Positions 387-6,220 of a stretch of 7,519 nucleotides of DNA are shown here, piece by piece. Every line of letters starts with the position of its first letter. The first letter of the stretch is position 1. The translations under genes and the position numbers were made by a program. The notes below the pieces were generated by a model. It was not told the origin of the DNA. It saw only the letters and a list, made by a program, of their open reading frames with translations, and searched no databases. The DNA lies in contig JAKBSX010000118.1 in NCBI GenBank assembly GCA_021844725.1, forward strand, positions 1-7,519. Reading direction: 5' to 3'. Source of the stretch: Actinomycetes bacterium (lineage in GTDB: Bacteria; Actinomycetota; Acidimicrobiia; Acidimicrobiales; Acidimicrobiaceae).

Positions 387-1115
387 TTAACGAGAGCAAG
401 TTCTGCCAAGTGCACTAGTCTTTCGAGCAGTGTAAATGACTGAGGACAACATCGAAAGAACTATCAGGAAATTTAACAGTGAAGGATTGTCAAATTCTAT
501 ATTGAGAAGCATCGTTGATGAGACAACAGATCCGAGCAACAACGTAGCAAGCGGAACTGAGCAACATCCGCCTGTGAAAATAGCTGGAATAATTCCTAGG
601 AATCCCACCATGCCGCCCGATTTTCTTATCCTGCCTTGCAGACGGATATTGTAGCTAATGAGAACTATGCTCAACGCAAAGAGAACGGATAAAACAACTG
701 AGAATATCATTGGACCGATAAAAAGTATCAAGGCGAGATGACCAGTGGGATACCAAATGAGTCCAGAATTGTAAAAGCCGGAAAGACTCGACAGATCAAG
801 ACCGAATGCTGGATTAGGAATTCCCTCCTTCCTTATGTACTGCGTTACGTTAAAAGAATAATAGAAAAACATCCCAGCCGAGTAACCATAGAGAAGCCAG
901 TAAGCAACAGTACTCAGTAATGCTACAATTTTATACTTCACAGATCGACCCAGAATCTTTCCTAAAAGTGAGAGAACAGAATCTGATTTGTGAAAAAAGA
1001 TCTCTTTTGAACTATTGTCTCTCTGCTTTTCACTTTCTAATCTTGATTGATCTTTGACTAGTCTTCTTTTTGAAGAGATGCGTAATGCAGGTTCCCACTT
1101 CGCAAGTGATTTCAC
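387..1115 (-). CDS. Four-helix membrane protein with CCSVP motif, possible metal (Hg) transporter
   Basis: 242 residues from a GTG start; no ATG occurs before Met82, so the exact start is uncertain. The first 60 residues are highly charged and probably cytoplasmic. Hydrophobic segments follow at about 63-88, 119-155 (long, perhaps kinked), 169-198 and 213-230. The third contains Cys184-Cys185-Ser-Val-Pro188, which recalls the vicinal-cysteine first helix of MerT, MerF and MerC that carries Hg(II). A further single Cys240 is near the C-terminus. It is the last gene of the cluster, 47 bases after the thioredoxin gene, and shares overall plan and motif placement with the 177-residue protein at 1923-2456, so the two may be distant paralogues. 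Hg transport is inferred from motif and context. Copper or heme handling, or a redox partner for the thioredoxin, are alternatives. Confidence 0.75.
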   Translation of the reverse strand: MKSLAKWEPALRISSKRRLVKDQSRLESEKQRDNSSKEIFFHKSDSVLSLLGKILGRSVKYKIVALLSTVAYWLLYGYSAGMFFYYSFNVTQYIRKEGIPNPAFGLDLSSLSGFYNSGLIWYPTGHLALILFIGPMIFSVVLSVLFALSIVLISYNIRLQGRIRKSGGMVGFLGIIPAIFTGGCCSVPLATLLLGSVVSSTMLLNIEFDNPSLLNFLIVLSMLSSVIYTARKTSALGRTCSR

Positions 1116-1162
1116 TTTCGCTCACGCGCCGCTTTCTATGCCTTCTCTAAGAGAAAAGGAAG

Positions 1163-1921
1163 TCAGGCTGCACTGACAACACTCGGGAGATTGTTGGCAA
1201 GACCAGAGGAACTTGTGGTCATGATTATTGCTCCAGTGCCATTGATCAAATAATAGGCCTCAAGATTCGCACTAGGATCGTAAGTATAAGTTGCGTTTTG
1301 GGTACTAGTTCCAAAGAACCATCCTGCCTTCCCCGTTCCTCCCCCATATTGGCTTGCAAACTGCTGTATCGATGGTCCCTGCTGGTTCAAATCGTTGTAC
1401 AATTCGATTGTTAGAATAACAACCCCCTTTGAGTGAAGCTGCGAATAGTATTGTTGATCCAGGAGCTGTGCCGCTTGCTGACAAGAAGGACACCAGGTTG
1501 CAACAAAGTAAAGGAGAACAGTACTACCTGAGAATTTGGACAAGGAAGTAGTTGTTCCGTTTGTGAGTGTGATTGGAATATTCGGGGCATAATCCCCTTG
1601 GTTTATGCCGTAAATAGGGCTAGATACCTTATTGTCGGAAGTGTGCTTTGTAGCTCCGCCTGTAGAGGGATTATGGTAGTATACTCCAACTGCCGCAATC
1701 ACGATGATGATTATCGCAATAGCAGATATTATCAGGAGCCTGTTTTGCCTACTTTTGTGAGATCTATTCGCTTTCTGTTTTCTTAGTGCATTCCTCTTCA
1801 CTACGTCTTTGGGCGGCGTGACACCTGGATGCTTGTCTGAGTAATGTTGGAGCAAGCCTTGTTCGGAAGTAAACTCTCTGTCACAAAGATCACAACTCTT
1901 CTTTGACATGAGCCCCTGCAT
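1163..1921 (-). CDS. C2H2 zinc finger / membrane anchor / TlpA-like thioredoxin fusion protein
   Basis: 252 residues. Residues 10-31 form a classical C2H2 finger (Cys10, Cys13, His26, His31; spacing C-x2-C-x12-H-x4-H). A strongly basic linker (about 42-61) precedes one hydrophobic helix at 62-82. By the positive-inside rule the finger is cytoplasmic and the C-terminal part is outside. That part begins GDYAPNIPITLTNG (109-122), typical of AhpC/TSA-TlpA redoxins, with active site Trp143-Cys-Pro-Ser-Cys147. In TlpA relatives a cis-proline precedes the TTFLI-like strand; here the strand reads EAYYLI, so that proline seems to be lost. ATG1 lies one base after the upstream stop, with Shine-Dalgarno AGAGGTGA overlapping it; Met5 is an alternative start. 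In this cluster the protein may act in place of an extracytoplasmic Hg-binding protein such as MerP, or keep transporter cysteines reduced. That role is inferred. Confidence 0.85.
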   Translation of the reverse strand: MQGLMSKKSCDLCDREFTSEQGLLQHYSDKHPGVTPPKDVVKRNALRKQKANRSHKSRQNRLLIISAIAIIIIVIAAVGVYYHNPSTGGATKHTSDNKVSSPIYGINQGDYAPNIPITLTNGTTTSLSKFSGSTVLLYFVATWCPSCQQAAQLLDQQYYSQLHSKGVVILTIELYNDLNQQGPSIQQFASQYGGGTGKAGWFFGTSTQNATYTYDPSANLEAYYLINGTGAIIMTTSSSGLANNLPSVVSAA

Positions 1922-1922
1922 T

Positions 1923-2456
1923 TCACCTCTTGCAGCAAGTGGTTATGTTCCTGCTTAAGTAATGGACTGAAACAAGCAAGAGGGCAGCTGAAAGTAAGTA
2001 AAAGTACGGATAGTTGAACTCAAAGAAGGCTTGAATCCTTGGAGAATAATCGAATAGAATCGGTGTTGATGCTCCGGATAGAGCAATCAGAGTTGGTATG
2101 ATTGGAGTACAGCATAGCCCATTGACCAAGCTTGCAAGTACAGATCCAATCGTCAAGTGCTTTCCTGCAGACGCGTGCATTCTGAACGCATAGATGTTCA
2201 GTACAATTACGAGGCTGAACAACACGCCGAAGACGAGCGCGAATCCTTCCTGAAGGGGCGTGATGAAATTGATTGCATAAGGAGCAATCAGAACTCCATC
2301 TGGAAGTGATGGAAGAAGATACATGTACAAGACAGAGATTGCTATCGCAAGAACGGCGAAAATTGCAATATAATTCCTCTTGGAGAAAGCTAGACGTAAT
2401 GCGTTTCTCTCATAAGCCATCGATAGTGGCGAATTGCGAATAGTCTGTGATTTCAT
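1923..2456 (-). CDS. Four-helix membrane protein with CCTP motif and C-terminal CC, probable Hg/metal transporter
   Basis: 177 residues from ATG, with Shine-Dalgarno GGGGTGAG overlapping the stop of the preceding gene. Hydrophobic segments lie at about 29-51, 71-91, 103-131 and 147-167. The third contains Cys115-Cys116-Thr-Pro118, and the C-terminus ends TTCCKR with a second vicinal pair (Cys174-Cys175). An intramembrane pair plus a terminal cytosolic pair is the arrangement of MerF, where Hg(II) moves from one pair to the next and then to MerA, but this protein has four helices instead of two. It sits 10 bases after the MerF-like gene and one base before the thioredoxin gene, so the genes are almost certainly co-transcribed. 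Substrate and direction are inferred. I do not recognise a named family. It resembles the 242-residue product at 387-1115 in helix order and motif position. Confidence 0.8.
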   Translation of the reverse strand: MKSQTIRNSPLSMAYERNALRLAFSKRNYIAIFAVLAIAISVLYMYLLPSLPDGVLIAPYAINFITPLQEGFALVFGVLFSLVIVLNIYAFRMHASAGKHLTIGSVLASLVNGLCCTPIIPTLIALSGASTPILFDYSPRIQAFFEFNYPYFYLLSAALLLVSVHYLSRNITTCCKR

Positions 2457-2466
2457 CTAATTTGGC

Positions 2467-2847
2467 TCACCCCTTCCTCTTTCTCGATATCTCTGGACTT
2501 GGAGGCTCGTCTTCTTTGGCAGGGATCAATGTCTTGGTTTTATGTCTCCGATGATAGAATACGAAAGAGCCGAAAATCAAGAGAAGAATCGAAGCGACGA
2601 TCAAAATGACATCCCATCCTTTGAAAAAAGAATAGACTGCGAGCCCTGCTCCTGCTGAGGCCAGGATTGCAGGAAGTGCGCAGCAAACCAATAGCGAAGC
2701 TATCAAAACAAGAGATAGCTTTGCACTGTTATTATCGCGATTTTGCTCTACAAGACTTCCAGTGTCTGATCCTAGCCTTTCTCTATTGGCTTTATAGCTA
2801 CTGTTTCCACAGTCATTGCATCGCTCTTCCTCTTGTTCCTTTTTCAA
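2467..2847 (-). CDS. MerF/MerT-like two-helix mercury transport protein
   Basis: 126 residues with hydrophobic helices at about 44-74 and 79-98. The first contains LLVCCALPAIL (Cys55-Cys56, Pro59) followed by a Gly/Ala-rich turn and an aromatic loop. This closely parallels MerF, whose first helix reads LCCFTPVLV and whose second helix ends in a basic patch, here HRRHK (99-103). MerF is about 80 residues. This protein has an additional 40-residue soluble N-terminus with Cys10-Asn-Asp-Cys13, and it lacks the C-terminal Cys pair of MerF. The start is TTG, chosen because AAGGAGTG (2859-2866) lies 11 bases upstream and no ATG is in frame nearby. It lies 24 bases after merA. Known MerF/MerT proteins bring Hg(II) into the cytoplasm for MerA. 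I infer the same job here, with the N-terminal CxxC as a possible cytosolic docking site. Confidence 0.75.
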   Translation of the reverse strand: MKKEQEEERCNDCGNSSYKANRERLGSDTGSLVEQNRDNNSAKLSLVLIASLLVCCALPAILASAGAGLAVYSFFKGWDVILIVASILLLIFGSFVFYHRRHKTKTLIPAKEDEPPSPEISRKRKG

Positions 2848-2858
2848 AGGATTCGATT

Positions 2859-2866
2859 CACTCCTT
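2859..2866 (-). promoter_or_regulatory. Shine-Dalgarno site for the MerF-like gene
   Basis: On the minus strand this reads AAGGAGTG, in the gap between the merA stop (2872-2874) and the TTG codon at 2845-2847. It supports the TTG start and translation of this gene from the shared transcript. Confidence 0.6.
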
Positions 2867-2871
2867 GTGTT

Positions 2872-4350
2872 CTATATGCAACAGCTTGTTGCTCCCACAT
2901 CGCGAAAGTAAGATTGCGCAACTATCTTGATTGATTCAGCCAAAGTTGGAAAAATGTGGATTGTATCGCTGACATCCTCCAAAGTGTACCTGTTTTTGAT
3001 AATCAGGGCTGCTTCAGTGATGATGTCGGCAGCATTCGGACAGAGGATATGGATGCCAAGCACCCTGTGGGTCGTGTTGTCCGCAACCATCTTGATGACT
3101 CCTCTCGTATTTCCAATGATTCTCGCCTTTGCGATCTCTGAAAAATTGAGTACTCTGCAGTTGCACTCGTAGCCATTCTCTATAGCTTCTCTATCCGTGA
3201 GTCCGACGCTTGCAAGCTGGGGATCTGTGAAGATTGCTCTTGGAACGGTGTTAAGATCAATTTTCTTGCCCGAACCAGTGAGTGCGTTCTCGGCAGCTAT
3301 CGTCCCTTCTCTAGCGGAAAGAGCTTCAAGCATCGGCTCGCCGGTGACATCTCCCGCTGCGTAGATGTTTGGAACACTGGTACGCATTTCATTATTGATG
3401 ATTATTGTTCCGCCGTCTCTTGTCTTGACACCCAGCTCTTCGAGTCCAATGTCTTTTGAGTTTGGTGCCCTACCTGTGGCGAGCAACAGAGCTTCGGTTT
3501 TGAATGACTCCTCTTTCTTCTTGCCGTCAATCACAGCTTCTACAGTTATGATCTTTTTGCCATTTCTAGATTTGCCATTTGGCTGTGATACTTTCTTGAC
3601 ATTAACGCCCGTCCTGATGTCTATTCCGTCTTCCTCTAGATAGGTCGCAAGAGCTTCTGCTATCTCTGGTTCGTCATTAGGGATTATTGTGTCACTCCTT
3701 TGGAGTAAGGTGACTTTGGTTCCAAGTCTAGAGTACATTTGAGCAAACTCTAGACCAAGTGCTCTTCCTCCTATCACAATCATGGAATCGGGGCGAAACG
3801 GCGGAGATAGTGCCTCCACGTTTGTCCAGTAATTTACATCTTGAATGCCTTCAAAGGAAGGTATTCTTGGGCGCGATCCAGTAGCGATGAGAAACGCGCC
3901 CCCGGCTATCGTCATTGTACCATTGTTATGACGATTGTCGCTTGTCGTAATCTTTACTTGATCCTTAGAAACAAAGACTCCTTTTCCCCTGTACACGTGA
4001 ACATTCTCTGAAAGCCCTTTCAGGACATTTTCGTACTTTTCTTTCCTCAAAACAGAGACCATCTGGCTCTTTGACTCGATTAGGTTTTGAAAGTTGAATT
4101 TCTCAACGCGAGGAGATATCGTGCCATTGCCCAGCTTATGTTTGGAGCTATTTTTGATCACCTCTCCTGCAACAAGTAATCTTTTGCTAGGCACGCAACC
4201 GACATTTACACAGGTTCCTCCAATGATACCTCCTTGCACTATGGCAGCTTTCTTTTTGAGCTCATCAGCTTTGATTGCAGCGGCAAATGCCGCGGCACCG
4301 TTACCTAGAATAACTAAATCGTACTTTGCTTTCCTCGCTTTTTCTGTCAA
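2872..4350 (-). CDS. merA: Mercuric reductase (MerA), core form without N-terminal metal-binding domain
   Basis: 492 residues; a cytoplasmic flavoprotein disulfide reductase that uses NADPH to reduce Hg(II) to volatile Hg(0). The FAD-binding motif GNGAAAFAAA (16-25) is followed by the redox pair Cys47-VNVG-Cys52, then YWTNVEAL with Tyr174 (matching the conserved active-site Tyr of Tn501 MerA YWTSTEAL). The NAD(P) fold VIGGRALGLE (192-201), ATGRAPN and the second FAD motif AAGD follow. The C-terminal vicinal pair Cys490-Cys491, diagnostic for MerA, is one residue from the end. The position that is His in dihydrolipoamide dehydrogenase (HPT) and Tyr in Tn501 MerA is Phe467 (FPT). The N-terminal HMA domain of many bacterial MerAs is absent. 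The start is TTG: an in-frame TGA lies three codons upstream, and the next Met is residue 97. It follows the ArsR gene by 42 bases. Confidence 0.96.
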   Translation of the reverse strand: MTEKARKAKYDLVILGNGAAAFAAAIKADELKKKAAIVQGGIIGGTCVNVGCVPSKRLLVAGEVIKNSSKHKLGNGTISPRVEKFNFQNLIESKSQMVSVLRKEKYENVLKGLSENVHVYRGKGVFVSKDQVKITTSDNRHNNGTMTIAGGAFLIATGSRPRIPSFEGIQDVNYWTNVEALSPPFRPDSMIVIGGRALGLEFAQMYSRLGTKVTLLQRSDTIIPNDEPEIAEALATYLEEDGIDIRTGVNVKKVSQPNGKSRNGKKIITVEAVIDGKKKEESFKTEALLLATGRAPNSKDIGLEELGVKTRDGGTIIINNEMRTSVPNIYAAGDVTGEPMLEALSAREGTIAAENALTGSGKKIDLNTVPRAIFTDPQLASVGLTDREAIENGYECNCRVLNFSEIAKARIIGNTRGVIKMVADNTTHRVLGIHILCPNAADIITEAALIIKNRYTLEDVSDTIHIFPTLAESIKIVAQSYFRDVGATSCCI

Positions 4351-4392
4351 TGGTCTTTTTCAGAACCTCTGTTGTAGAGAGATATAGAAGAA

Positions 4393-4746
4393 TCACTTTG
4401 TTATTTGAGCCACTGTGATCTTCTTTGCGTCAGAGATCATGTCGCAGCCCTCCATTCTTTGGCCAAACTTCTCGACGTGCTTTGAGGCTGCATCAAGTAT
4501 CGGAACAACAGTCTTCGAATTGAGTGAGTAGATTATTCGCTTGCCATCCCGTCTAAAATTTGCAAACCCGCAAACTGTTAGACAACGAAGCTCGTGCGAG
4601 ACACGCGTTTGTTCCTCGCGCACCTCGCTGCAAAGCTCACTCACATCTCTTTCATCGTCACGTAGCGCTTCTATCAGCTTTAGACGCACTTGATTTGAAA
4701 GCACTTTGAAGACAAGAACATGAGCCTGAAAATCTTGTTTAGACAT
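4393..4746 (-). CDS. ArsR/SmtB-family metal-sensing repressor of the mer cluster
   Basis: 117 residues. Winged helix-turn-helix: VLSNQVRLKLIEAL (15-28) is the typical ArsR helix, DVSELCSEV (34-42) and QTRVSHELRCL (46-56) are the turn and recognition helices, and RRDGKRIIYSLN (65-76) is the wing. Cysteines at 39, 55, 59 and 101 are candidate Hg(II) ligands; Cys39 lies where ArsR proteins carry their ELCVCDL metal site. The ATG falls about 26 bases from the TATA box, so the mRNA is probably leaderless. The palindrome at 4744-4765 overlaps the start and would let the protein repress itself and the genes behind it. In Sulfolobus the mer operon regulator is likewise ArsR-like although called MerR (established knowledge). 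Hg as inducer is inferred from the neighbouring merA; As, Cd or Zn cannot be excluded. Confidence 0.9.
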   Translation of the reverse strand: MSKQDFQAHVLVFKVLSNQVRLKLIEALRDDERDVSELCSEVREEQTRVSHELRCLTVCGFANFRRDGKRIIYSLNSKTVVPILDAASKHVEKFGQRMEGCDMISDAKKITVAQITK

Positions 4747-4770: not shown

Positions 4771-4778
4771 ATATAAAG
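4771..4778 (-). promoter_or_regulatory. TATA box of the mer cluster
   Basis: The minus strand reads CTTTATAT, preceded by a purine-rich BRE-like stretch (CGATAAA). Its centre is about 27 bases from the ATG at 4746, which places the predicted start of transcription at or within a few bases of the start codon. Confidence 0.65.
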
Positions 4779-4801: not shown

Positions 4802-5032
4802 TTTAACGGCGGAGGCTTCAATGAGCAAGGTTGGTACTATGGTTATTCAAATCAGACTACAACGTACATTTTTGATCTGAAAGAAGCGTTGGAAGTTTAT
4901 TACGCGTTGAACAGGCAAAGAGAAATTGTTACTCGTGCAATAGAGCTATCCAACGGCCCTCATTCTCTTGTTGCCGATATTCCTGGTGTCACCGCTAGAT
5001 CTAAGATGGGAGGGTTTGCCCTTTTGTCATAA
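4802..5032 (+). other. Open frame without a usable start; possible gene remnant
   Basis: A 76-codon stretch is open on the plus strand from just after a TGA (4799-4801) to TAA (5030-5032). It reads, in part, NEQGWYYGYSNQ, IFDLKEALEVYYALNRQ and VADIPGVTARSKMGGF, which looks protein-like in composition. The only ATG comes near the end, so as it stands it is not expressed from a normal start. It overlaps the truncated end of the integrase pseudogene on the opposite strand and lies directly behind the mer promoter. It may be the broken tail of a gene displaced by the element that brought in the mer cluster, or chance. I recognise no family. Confidence 0.2.
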
Positions 5033-5692
5033 GCATGTCCCTCGTCATGAGCAATGTCGCGATGATTGCTTTGTCTCGAACAGGAACTTGTCCGTCGTCT
5101 ATGATCTTCCAAACTTCATCGGACTTTACATAGGACTACTCCGTGATCGTCTTCGTAAGCATCTCGCGATCATATGTTATCTTCTCTCGAGGAAGCTCGG
5201 ATCGAGTCTTTCTGTAGAATCCCCTGATAATCGTCTGCACTGAGTTCTTTGACTCAAAGTCGCCCTTCCAGGAATCGAAGTATTCCTGCATGATGTCGAG
5301 ATGTCTGTACTTGCCATCCTCATTTTTCGCATTCTTGTAGTCATCCAGCAGCGCCTCGACATCGGGGAGATTTCCTTCGTAACAAGCCACTTTTGGTACT
5401 TGAAGAGCTTCCTTCCCCAAGAGGCGCGGGTCTTGTTGCTGCCCAGCTTCAAGAGCATTCTCTTGACACATGGAATCTCCAGGATTTCTGCCAGACCTAG
5501 AGTCCGGATGAATCCGCTGCGCTCGACCTCGAAAGCCCCGCGGTATTTCTTCAGTTTCCATAAGAACGGCAAAACGTGCGAAGGGGGTCTTCCAAGTTTT
5601 AGGGCAATCTGGCCGCTCGTAAGACCAGAGTTCTCCTTCACTACTTTTACTAGATCATTGTAGATCTGGCGCCTGTGGAAGTGACGGCCGCA
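5001..5692 (-). pseudogene. Tyrosine recombinase (integrase) pseudogene with helix-turn-helix N-terminus, catalytic domain missing
   Basis: Joining two frames gives one protein. The first part (5692 to about 5367) reads RRQIYNDLVKVVKENSGL, then TSGQIALKLGRPPSHVLPFL, a probable helix-turn-helix, and later KLFKYQKWLVTKEISP. At the run of four C on the minus strand (5364-5367) the frame shifts by one base and continues DVEALLDDYKNAKNEDGKYR, YFDSWKGDFESKNSVQTII, GFYRKTRSELPREKITYD, which looks like the helical core-binding domain of archaeal integrases. A TAG (5136-5138) follows; then KSDEVWKIIDDGQVPVRDKA and IIATLL open the catalytic domain, after which similarity to the expected pattern ends. 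The Arg, HxxR and Tyr catalytic motifs are absent. A short frame upstream (to about 5748; ARWFYKRDPVLPEFDNAA) may be an earlier part, implying another frameshift near 5690. The pseudogene starts 114 bases inside the tRNA-Ala 3' end on the same strand. Family assignment rests on motif recall without a search. Confidence 0.65.
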
Positions 5693-5851
5693 TTATCAAA
5701 CTCAGGAAGGACTGGGTCGCGCTTGTAGAACCAGCGGGCTACAATCAAATTCTAAGGTCATTGGGTACTAGGTTGTGACCCCCTATATTATCCAAGTGTA
5801 GTTTATGGACCGGCTGGGATTTGAACCCAGGACCCCCACCATGCCAAAGTG

Positions 5852-5883
5852 CTGGACGCAGAAGTTATTTCTTCACAACCGCT
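5852..5883 (-). other. tRNA-Ala intron 2 (top of the anticodon stem, between positions 27 and 28)
   Basis: 32 bases. The exon strand GGAT pairs with intron GTCC, flanked by bulges ACA and AGC; inside, GCGG pairs with CTGC. Excision joins C27 to CACT and restores the anticodon stem CCACT/GGTGG. The outer helix of a strict bulge-helix-bulge is not seen. The site is noncanonical. Confidence 0.7.
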
Positions 5884-5896
5884 GTATCCTACCAGG

Positions 5897-5917
5897 CTTT
5901 CCGAAGTGAGTTCTTCT
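5897..5917 (-). other. tRNA-Ala intron 1 (D-loop, between positions 15 and 16)
   Basis: 21 bases. The intron carries the hairpin GAAG-AACTCA-CTTC. Its 3' part GGAA can pair (three of four bases) with the D-stem strand GTCT, leaving three-base bulges AGA and AGC at the two cut sites, a relaxed bulge-helix-bulge. The position is noncanonical and matches tRNA-Gly intron 1. Confidence 0.7.
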
Positions 5918-5959
5918 CTAGACGACCGGCCCGCGTAGAGTTTGATTTTCTTTTATCTT

Positions 5960-6043: not shown

Positions 6044-6085
6044 CCGTGAATAGCGGAGTTTGATTCAAGTGCGGCGATCGTCTAG

Positions 6086-6132
6086 ACGCAATTTGTTACT
6101 TCGCTAATCACGTAGGATCAAGTGCGGGAGAT
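6086..6132 (+). other. tRNA-Gly intron 1 (D-loop, between positions 15 and 16)
   Basis: 47 bases. CGCA (6087-6090) pairs with TGCG (6123-6126) as the inner helix. The following GGAG pairs three of four bases with the D-stem strand GTCT, leaving bulges AGA and ATC at the cut sites. This is the same exon context and geometry as tRNA-Ala intron 1, though the interiors differ. Confidence 0.75.
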
Positions 6133-6157
6133 CCTGGTCTAGGACATCAGCCTGCCA

Positions 6158-6185
6158 TTCTCCTTGAGTAAAATCGAGAGCAGTG
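6158..6185 (+). other. tRNA-Gly intron 2 (canonical position 37/38)
   Basis: 28 bases forming a textbook bulge-helix-bulge. The outer helix is TCAGC/GCTGG, the central helix CTGC/GCAG, the bulges CAT and TGC are each cut after the second base, and the inner helix is TCTC/GAGA. Confidence 0.9.
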
Positions 6186-6220
6186 CGCTGGTAACCCGGG
6201 TTCAAATCCCGGTCGCCGCA

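Follow-up and report, generated by a model that had tools for sequence, protein, structure and literature searches.

A buried vicinal-cysteine membrane protein and an anchored redoxin as companions of archaeal mercuric reductase

In bacteria the mercury transporter MerT carries a vicinal cysteine pair (CC) followed by proline in a membrane helix, is encoded beside the mercuric reductase gene merA, and has MerP as its partner. MerT is reported to have three helices (PMC3466566) with CC in the first (PMC5715351). For Archaea the route of Hg(II) to the enzyme has been left open, because PMC3466566 reports archaeal MerA without bacterial Hg(II) transporters: apart from one merP, no transporter of the merT/merP type was present in the Archaea studied at that time. 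Here we describe a single run of six genes on the minus strand of a 7,519-nucleotide stretch of archaeal DNA (contig JAKBSX010000118.1; the whole stretch is hereafter called the window). In order, the genes are arsR, merA, and those for the membrane proteins TM126 and TM177 (177 amino acids), a membrane-anchored redoxin (252 amino acids) and a third membrane protein, TM242 (242 amino acids). TM177 and the redoxin are a conserved companion of archaeal MerA, and the buried CC of TM177 is kept. The six genes are probably an ArsR-controlled archaeal mercury-resistance cluster. The cluster is a concrete candidate, with named cysteines, for how Hg(II) reaches archaeal MerA.

Comparison with described systems reveals likenesses and differences in each case. 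TM177 resembles MerT in its CC-proline helix and its place beside merA; however, it has four predicted transmembrane (TM) helices with CC in the third, its partner is a redoxin rather than MerP, and the window proteins score below the curated cut-offs. TM126 is like bacterial MerF in having two helices with CC in TM1, and several of its relatives carry a Cys pair in the tail. By contrast, the second pair of the window copy is an N-terminal CxxC, the match covers 40 columns, and no Pfam or NCBIfam cut-off is reached. Bacterial MerC and MerH are reported with four predicted spans, as in TM177 (PMC3466566; MerH is likened by description only), but there is no MerC match among 34 TM177 family members. 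The Sulfolobus-type merH-merA arrangement, in which archaeal MerH is a TRASH protein, shares with our locus an archaeal merA with an ArsR-type regulator. The described Sulfolobus mer operon includes MerI. Neither such a TRASH gene nor MerI was seen in the window, and the set is not the one described. Finally, TlpA/ResA redoxins with CcdA/DsbD-type partners likewise place an anchored CxxC redoxin beside a polytopic Cys membrane protein; the window differs in having no CcdA/DsbD match, and in its vicinal CC, its C2H2-like finger and its link to merA. An earlier note on this DNA, made from the sequence alone, considered the membrane set undescribed for mer operons. We too found no paper on it in the open-access literature, subscription papers lying outside the search. 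A 2021 survey counts Micrarchaeota and Thaumarchaeota MerA and, in the portion available, describes no such neighbours (PMC8261052).

The MerA of the window is genuine. It exceeds the curated TIGR02053 cut-off and has both the redox-active CxxxxC (CVNVGC) and the C-terminal vicinal cysteines (SCC; CC codons 2878-2883). Its closest solved relative is 4ywo, 'Mercuric reductase' (E value 1.6e-114), and an N-terminal HMA domain is not among its Pfam matches. The regulator belongs to the ArsR/SmtB family (NF033788 above cut-off), and arsR is found beside merA in many relatives. Gaps along the run are 42, 24, 10, 1 and 47 bases, so that 'tight unit', the earlier note's phrase, is a fair description. 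The same note was right that ArsR, MerA and three CC membrane proteins lie together on the minus strand, every open reading frame (ORF) being where it had been placed, and that CCALP, CCTP and CCSVP fall within hydrophobic segments: a hydropathy scan puts each CC inside one, in TM126, TM177 and TM242 alike. It had omitted the redoxin gene, a fourth accessory component inside the same run.

The cysteines of the four accessory proteins are nearly all paired. TM177 has exactly four, in two vicinal pairs: C115/C116 in the segment 106-124 and C174/C175 near the C terminus. TM126 also has four, a CxxC (C10/C13) ahead of TM1 and C55/C56 in the segment 44-62, as does the redoxin (C10/C13 in the finger, C144/C147 in the CxxC). 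TM242 carries C184/C185 in its third segment (169-187) and a single C240, at whose C-terminal place several relatives have CxxC. By charge counts, both ends of TM177 and of TM126 are more likely cytosolic. Among 250 predicted membrane proteins in 54 merA neighbourhoods from the phylum group of locus L001, 14 have CC within a segment or adjoining one. As eight of the 14 belong to the TM177/CC family or are its redoxin, the background is 6/242; the window, with CC in three membrane proteins of three, lies far above it.

The association with merA is strongest in the Micrarchaeota phylum group. Here TM177 occurs in 50 of 196 genomes, MerA over cut-off in 37 and both in 36, so that TM177 is present in 36 of 37 MerA genomes as against 14 of the 159 others (Fisher p 1e-26). 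In all 36 the two genes share a contig and lie no more than 2,331 bases apart. The sole MerA genome lacking TM177 (G614, locus L165) reaches a contig edge right after arsR and the redoxin gene. At the 51 TM177 loci holding MerA (window included; duplicates L028, L037, L039 and L044 dropped), a redoxin gene lies within 100 bp of TM177 in every case and the intramembrane CC is always kept (50 by pattern, L134 by reading), counts that are inflated by related metagenome-assembled genomes. The C-terminal CC is found in 39 of 50 full-length copies, the truncated L020 being set aside. Because these 51 loci were selected for holding TM177, only the genome surveys are unbiased for linkage.

Gene order is also shared. 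A TM177 profile search recovered 23 loci in 21 genomes, 17 of them with MerA over cut-off. The six-gene order of the window is repeated in L003, L007 and L008, whose MerA proteins are ∼50% identical to that of the window, and recurs without a detected arsR in L004, L005 and L006. In the Micrarchaeota records L011-L014, L016 and L020, merA is divergent from arsR-redoxin-TM177; across the loci the arrangement may be an operon, divergent or redoxin-first. Conservation near merA, by which the earlier note proposed to judge the cluster, is thus seen both in the repeated six-gene order and in the Micrarchaeota-group survey. One of these loci, L004, has a further 299-residue membrane protein with a CCCC motif (12864-13763), which overlaps the end of TM242 in the merA cluster.

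What kind of protein is TM177? It has no Pfam or NCBIfam match at E≤1, and so does not fall into a known non-mercury family, the outcome that would have told against the earlier note. Its 34 relatives yield scattered sub-threshold Pfam matches only, with no Mer family, MerC included, at E≤1. A fold search returned nothing at E≤0.001 and middling helical-bundle alignments only, with no clear solved fold. The few named homologues, labelled 'hypothetical protein', belong to records of Nitrososphaerales, Thaumarchaeota and Ca. Marsarchaeota; no relative was among 39 pattern matches in viral contigs. TM177 and TM242 are distant homologues that align over helices 2-4 (hhalign E 4.1e-8, 0/60 local shuffles as good; reversed control score 19.5 vs 57.3 real). 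Profile comparison showed no relationship between TM177 and TM126 (probability 0.2, 36/60 shuffles as good). Of the three 'different' proteins of the earlier note, therefore, TM126 shows no relation to TM177, whereas TM177 and TM242 are relatives. Its term 'four-helix' suits TM177, which has four segments. For TM242 the scan gives five, two of them abutting, and the structure model is unusable (predicted local distance difference test score 46.6), so the count is four or five.

Profile comparison with the bacterial transporters separates the three proteins. Against two MerT and two MerF sequences taken together, TM126 aligns with an E value of 4.9e-7 over 40 columns (0/60 shuffles as good), and it has the MerF-like architecture of a short two-helix form with CC in the first helix. 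TM242 reaches a probability of 28, again with 0/60 shuffles as good, and TM177 is not significant. By profile, a resemblance to MerT/MerF thus holds for TM126 and not for TM177. At the level of curated models, TM126 falls short (merT_RC607, 16.8 of 130 bits; MerC, 13.2 of 27.6 bits). Its 26 family members give weak NCBIfam matches to MerT (8/26) and MerTP (8/26), with MerE in 5/26 and Pfam MerC in 4/26. Four of 12 TM242 members match Pfam MerT (PF02411, best E 2.3e-4), and neither TM177 nor TM242 of the window matches that model at the Pfam gathering score. A solved-structure search with the TM126 profile had a best E value of 0.47, with no Mer protein among the 30 matches listed. As TM126, TM177 and TM242 are below all curated Mer cut-offs, we do not file them as MerT, MerF or MerC. 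One TM242 homologue is named, from a Nitrososphaerota record.

The redoxin has an N-terminal C2H2-like finger (zf-met match 20.9 bits, just below the 21.2 cut-off), one TM helix and a TlpA/ResA-like domain with WCPSC (1481-1492). It passes the Pfam redoxin cut-off with its CxxC and misses that of the ResA subfamily (46.4 of 170 bits). An HMA domain with CxxC, by which we looked for MerP, was not found in the window proteins scanned by Pfam; the anchored protein is the redoxin. Micrarchaeal redoxins of L011, L012, L013 and L020 have CCG[IV]P inside the TM anchor. Beside TM177 in L018 (2463-3905), L019 (10467-11654) and L166 (3607-5022) stand redoxins of 395-480 residues with an extra C-terminal part.

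We favour, with some reservation, the reading that the module imports Hg(II), the anchored redoxin replacing MerP and the four-helix CC protein replacing MerT; the argument is one of analogy. The suggestion of the earlier note, that the two four-helix proteins may be a new Hg(II) transporter type, is supported in this widened form. The CxxC of the redoxin would take Hg(II) outside the membrane, as MerP does in bacteria, and would hand it to the buried CC of TM177 (and of TM242, with TM126 as a MerF-like auxiliary). Thiol exchange would then carry the metal to the cytosolic C-terminal Cys pair, from where it would pass to the C-terminal CC of MerA and be reduced to Hg(0). As long as no Hg(II) is bound, ArsR would keep the unit repressed. 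We count three kinds of protein for such a relay: a natural fusion of a CCGLP helix protein with TM177 (P0039), the CCG[IV]P redoxin anchors, and, encoded next to merA in L217 (2799-3587, minus strand), a CCGGG membrane protein ending in an HMA domain, a fusion like bacterial MerTP. Import is also favoured by the co-occurrence in the Micrarchaeota group, the constancy of the redoxin and the CC at the 51 loci, the changing gene arrangements, the charge counts, the TM126 match to MerT/MerF, and the lack of MerA over cut-off in the CxC/CxxC genomes sampled. The HMA domain of L217 lies just below the Pfam cut-off (24.6 of 24.8 bits), and its locus has a weak redoxin match only. P0095 is another fusion, of a CCGVP helix and a weakly TRASH-like domain.

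Several observations weigh against import by this module. Profile comparison of TM177 with bacterial MerT/MerF is not significant (probability 14, 2/60 shuffles as good), and TM126 relatives match a phage-holin Pfam model (14/26, best 2e-4) oftener than any Mer Pfam model. L002 and L009 hold arsR-TM126-TM177-redoxin with no merA in the stretch, MerA being elsewhere in their genomes (G002, G009). G017, G321 and G156 have a TM177 cluster without MerA nearby, although each genome has one. TM177 and redoxin occur without MerA over cut-off in G344, G440, G487, G599, G612 and G020; of these G487, G599 and G612 keep arsR by the pair, while the contigs of G612 and G020 are short. Moreover, in the phylum group of L001 (398 genomes, 54 with MerA over cut-off), the narrow TM177 profile is weakly tied to MerA (3/54, namely G001, G321 and G156, vs 2/344; Fisher 0.019), and 44 of the 54 MerA genomes, G321 and G156 among them, have no CC four-helix gene near MerA. 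Several of the 54 merA neighbourhoods read in this group are cut short by the contig end (for example L194, L209 and L223), so absence there is weak.

That narrow profile (A1) matched 5/398 genomes and missed divergent copies beside merA that were seen on reading the neighbourhoods. With a widened profile (A6), 54 further merA neighbourhoods from 51 of the 54 MerA genomes were read. A CC membrane gene and a redoxin gene stand beside merA in L175, L187, L201, L202, L206, L208, L182 and L210, L217 has the HMA-fused CC protein, and in G137 the pair is ∼6.4 kb from merA. With G001 counted, a CC four-helix gene thus lies near merA in ten of 54 MerA genomes, and a redoxin accompanies it in nine. A6 matches 92/398 genomes. 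Above 70 bits there are 12 matches in 11 genomes, 10 of which have MerA over cut-off, a proportion that is not independent because nine of the 11 supplied A6 rows, mostly picked at merA loci (G156 and G137 supplied none). On a MerA tree of 101 rows, unevenly sampled, with L165 and duplicates left out, the hand-assigned label 'pair' must change 11 times, and starred branches force nine of these changes, which implies that the link of TM177 and redoxin to MerA was made or lost repeatedly; L217 was scored 'pair' though its redoxin is an 83-residue weak match.

Other gene combinations were met in these neighbourhoods. At three loci, L175, L187 and L201, merA stands between a short TRASH-like gene and a divergent TM177-redoxin pair; the TRASH-like genes were found by cysteine pattern, and a Pfam check of two put L187 over and L175 under the cut-off. 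L182 (8467-10107), L210 (9276-10875) and L228 (4746-6480) each encode a trio in which a CC membrane protein and a redoxin are joined by another membrane protein that carries CPACFSF, with MerA on the same contig in each genome. The two Cys spacings within one cluster could separate transport and redox roles.

CcdA/DsbD or DsbB/VKOR proteins keep thioredoxin-fold partners reduced or oxidised. TM177 and TM242 might similarly be membrane thiol carriers for the extracytoplasmic redoxin, in a cluster serving to repair surface thiols hit by mercury or to protect them. We regard this, the main rival to import, as unlikely, yet it has several observations on its side: the redoxin is the most constant neighbour at the 51 loci, the pair exists without MerA in a few genomes, and distant homologues point the same way. 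Many A6 matches below ∼62 bits form another class of roughly 160-170 residues. Eight were read (L036, L224-L227, L229-L231; seven genomes), and all have CSCG, CGCG, CASC or CPAC in place of CC. Against import, the next gene in L036, L225, L229 and L231 encodes a Thioredoxin_4/DSBA protein; L227 has such a gene nearby, divergent. By contrast, TM177 has vicinal CC, never CxC or CxxC, at all 51 loci holding MerA; towards the cytosolic end most copies have another Cys pair; linkage to ArsR and MerA is strong in the Micrarchaeota group; and some CC membrane proteins are fused to an HMA or weakly TRASH-like domain. Archaeal AmoA is present in all seven genomes behind the distant homologues, and MerA over cut-off in none, so in this sample of ammonia oxidisers the CxC/CxxC branch goes without MerA, and the vicinal CC goes with it.

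Since four of the eight distant homologues directly adjoin DSBA genes, what the two branches have in common may be the pairing of a four-helix Cys protein with a thioredoxin-fold partner on the outside, serving redox exchange or metal hand-over. For the mercury branch, vicinal CC, ArsR/MerA linkage and HMA fusion favour metal hand-over. Ammonia-oxidising archaea depend on copper. One speculative extension, which we rate as rather doubtful, is an archaeal superfamily of soft-metal importers, each a four-helix buried-Cys protein with a metal-delivering extracytoplasmic thioredoxin-fold protein, the CC branch handling mercury and the CxC/CxxC branch, for example, copper.

It is improbable that the CC proteins instead bind Hg(II) or other soft metals so as to expel them or hold them at the membrane surface, with MerA as a parallel route. 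The direction of transport is unreadable from sequence, and import is argued by analogy with MerT, MerF and MerE; however, Pfam and NCBIfam matches of the six genes include no ATPase or other energy-coupling domain, and uptake by MerE depends on the CC pair of its first helix (PMC5715351). That the three proteins are simply far-diverged MerT, MerF or MerC, the redoxin being incidental, is very improbable: the TM126 alignment, the PF02411 matches of TM242 members and the four spans of MerC and MerH speak for it, but the window proteins reach no curated Mer cut-off, 0/34 TM177 members match a Mer family, and the redoxin gene is present at all 51 loci.

The cluster is a conserved feature of Nitrososphaeria-type archaea and of Micrarchaeota, and it also occurs in some others; parts of it stand beside merA in many archaea only distantly related to one another. 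If import by TM177 and the redoxin is true, the task of MerP falls to a thioredoxin-fold protein, prokaryotes have a second mercury-uptake route, and a family of 'hypothetical' proteins gains a function.

Table 1. Features of the window, and distant TM177 homologues at other loci.
Feature	Position	Strand	Basis or detail
TM242, four or five predicted TM segments	387..1115	-	CC of CCSVP at 561-566
Redoxin, TlpA/ResA-like, membrane-anchored	1163..1921	-	PF08534 1.9e-11 (44.4 bits, cut-off 26.6); PF00578 1.2e-10
TM177, four predicted TM helices, CCTP in TM3	1923..2456	-	CC at 2109-2114; second CC 1932-1937
TM126, two predicted TM helices, MerF/MerT-like	2467..2847	-	CC of CCALP at 2680-2685 in TM1
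merA, mercuric reductase	2872..4350	-	TIGR02053 550 bits, cut-off 454
arsR-type regulator, first gene of unit	4393..4746	-	PF01022 2.6e-8; NF033788 67.8 bits, cut-off 55
Candidate operator over arsR start codon	4744..4765	.	sequence; perfect inverted repeat CATATGA-N8-TCATATG
Candidate archaeal promoter, TATA-like TTTATAT	4771..4777	-	by eye; ∼25-30 nt upstream of arsR start
Degenerate redoxin-like fragment, upstream of arsR	4808..4996	+	tblastn with window redoxin
Distant TM177 homologues (CPAC or CSCG/CGCG/CASC)	L224 4822-5337; L226 4989-5501; L036 8447-8932
Distant TM177 homologues (CPAC or CSCG/CGCG/CASC)	L225 4692-5171; L229 4833-5315; L231 4613-5128

The TATA-like element, as a candidate promoter, would make the arsR mRNA leaderless. 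The degenerate fragment upstream of arsR aligns with the redoxin of the window at an E value of 4.8e-9 (35% identity, 63 columns), which suggests that the locus may once have held a divergent copy.

Two further regions lie beyond the cluster. At 5136-5641 on the minus strand, two ORFs of 141 and 154 residues overlap in different frames; they have no significant Pfam match and may be one frameshifted gene. At 5803-5932 (minus strand) and ∼6070-6220 (plus strand), two tRNA-like ends were seen by eye around extra sequence, perhaps intron-containing archaeal tRNAs. ARAGORN, with intron options included, called neither; an Rfam scan of the window gave two sub-threshold matches, one of which is a transfer-messenger RNA at 5803-5932 on the minus strand.

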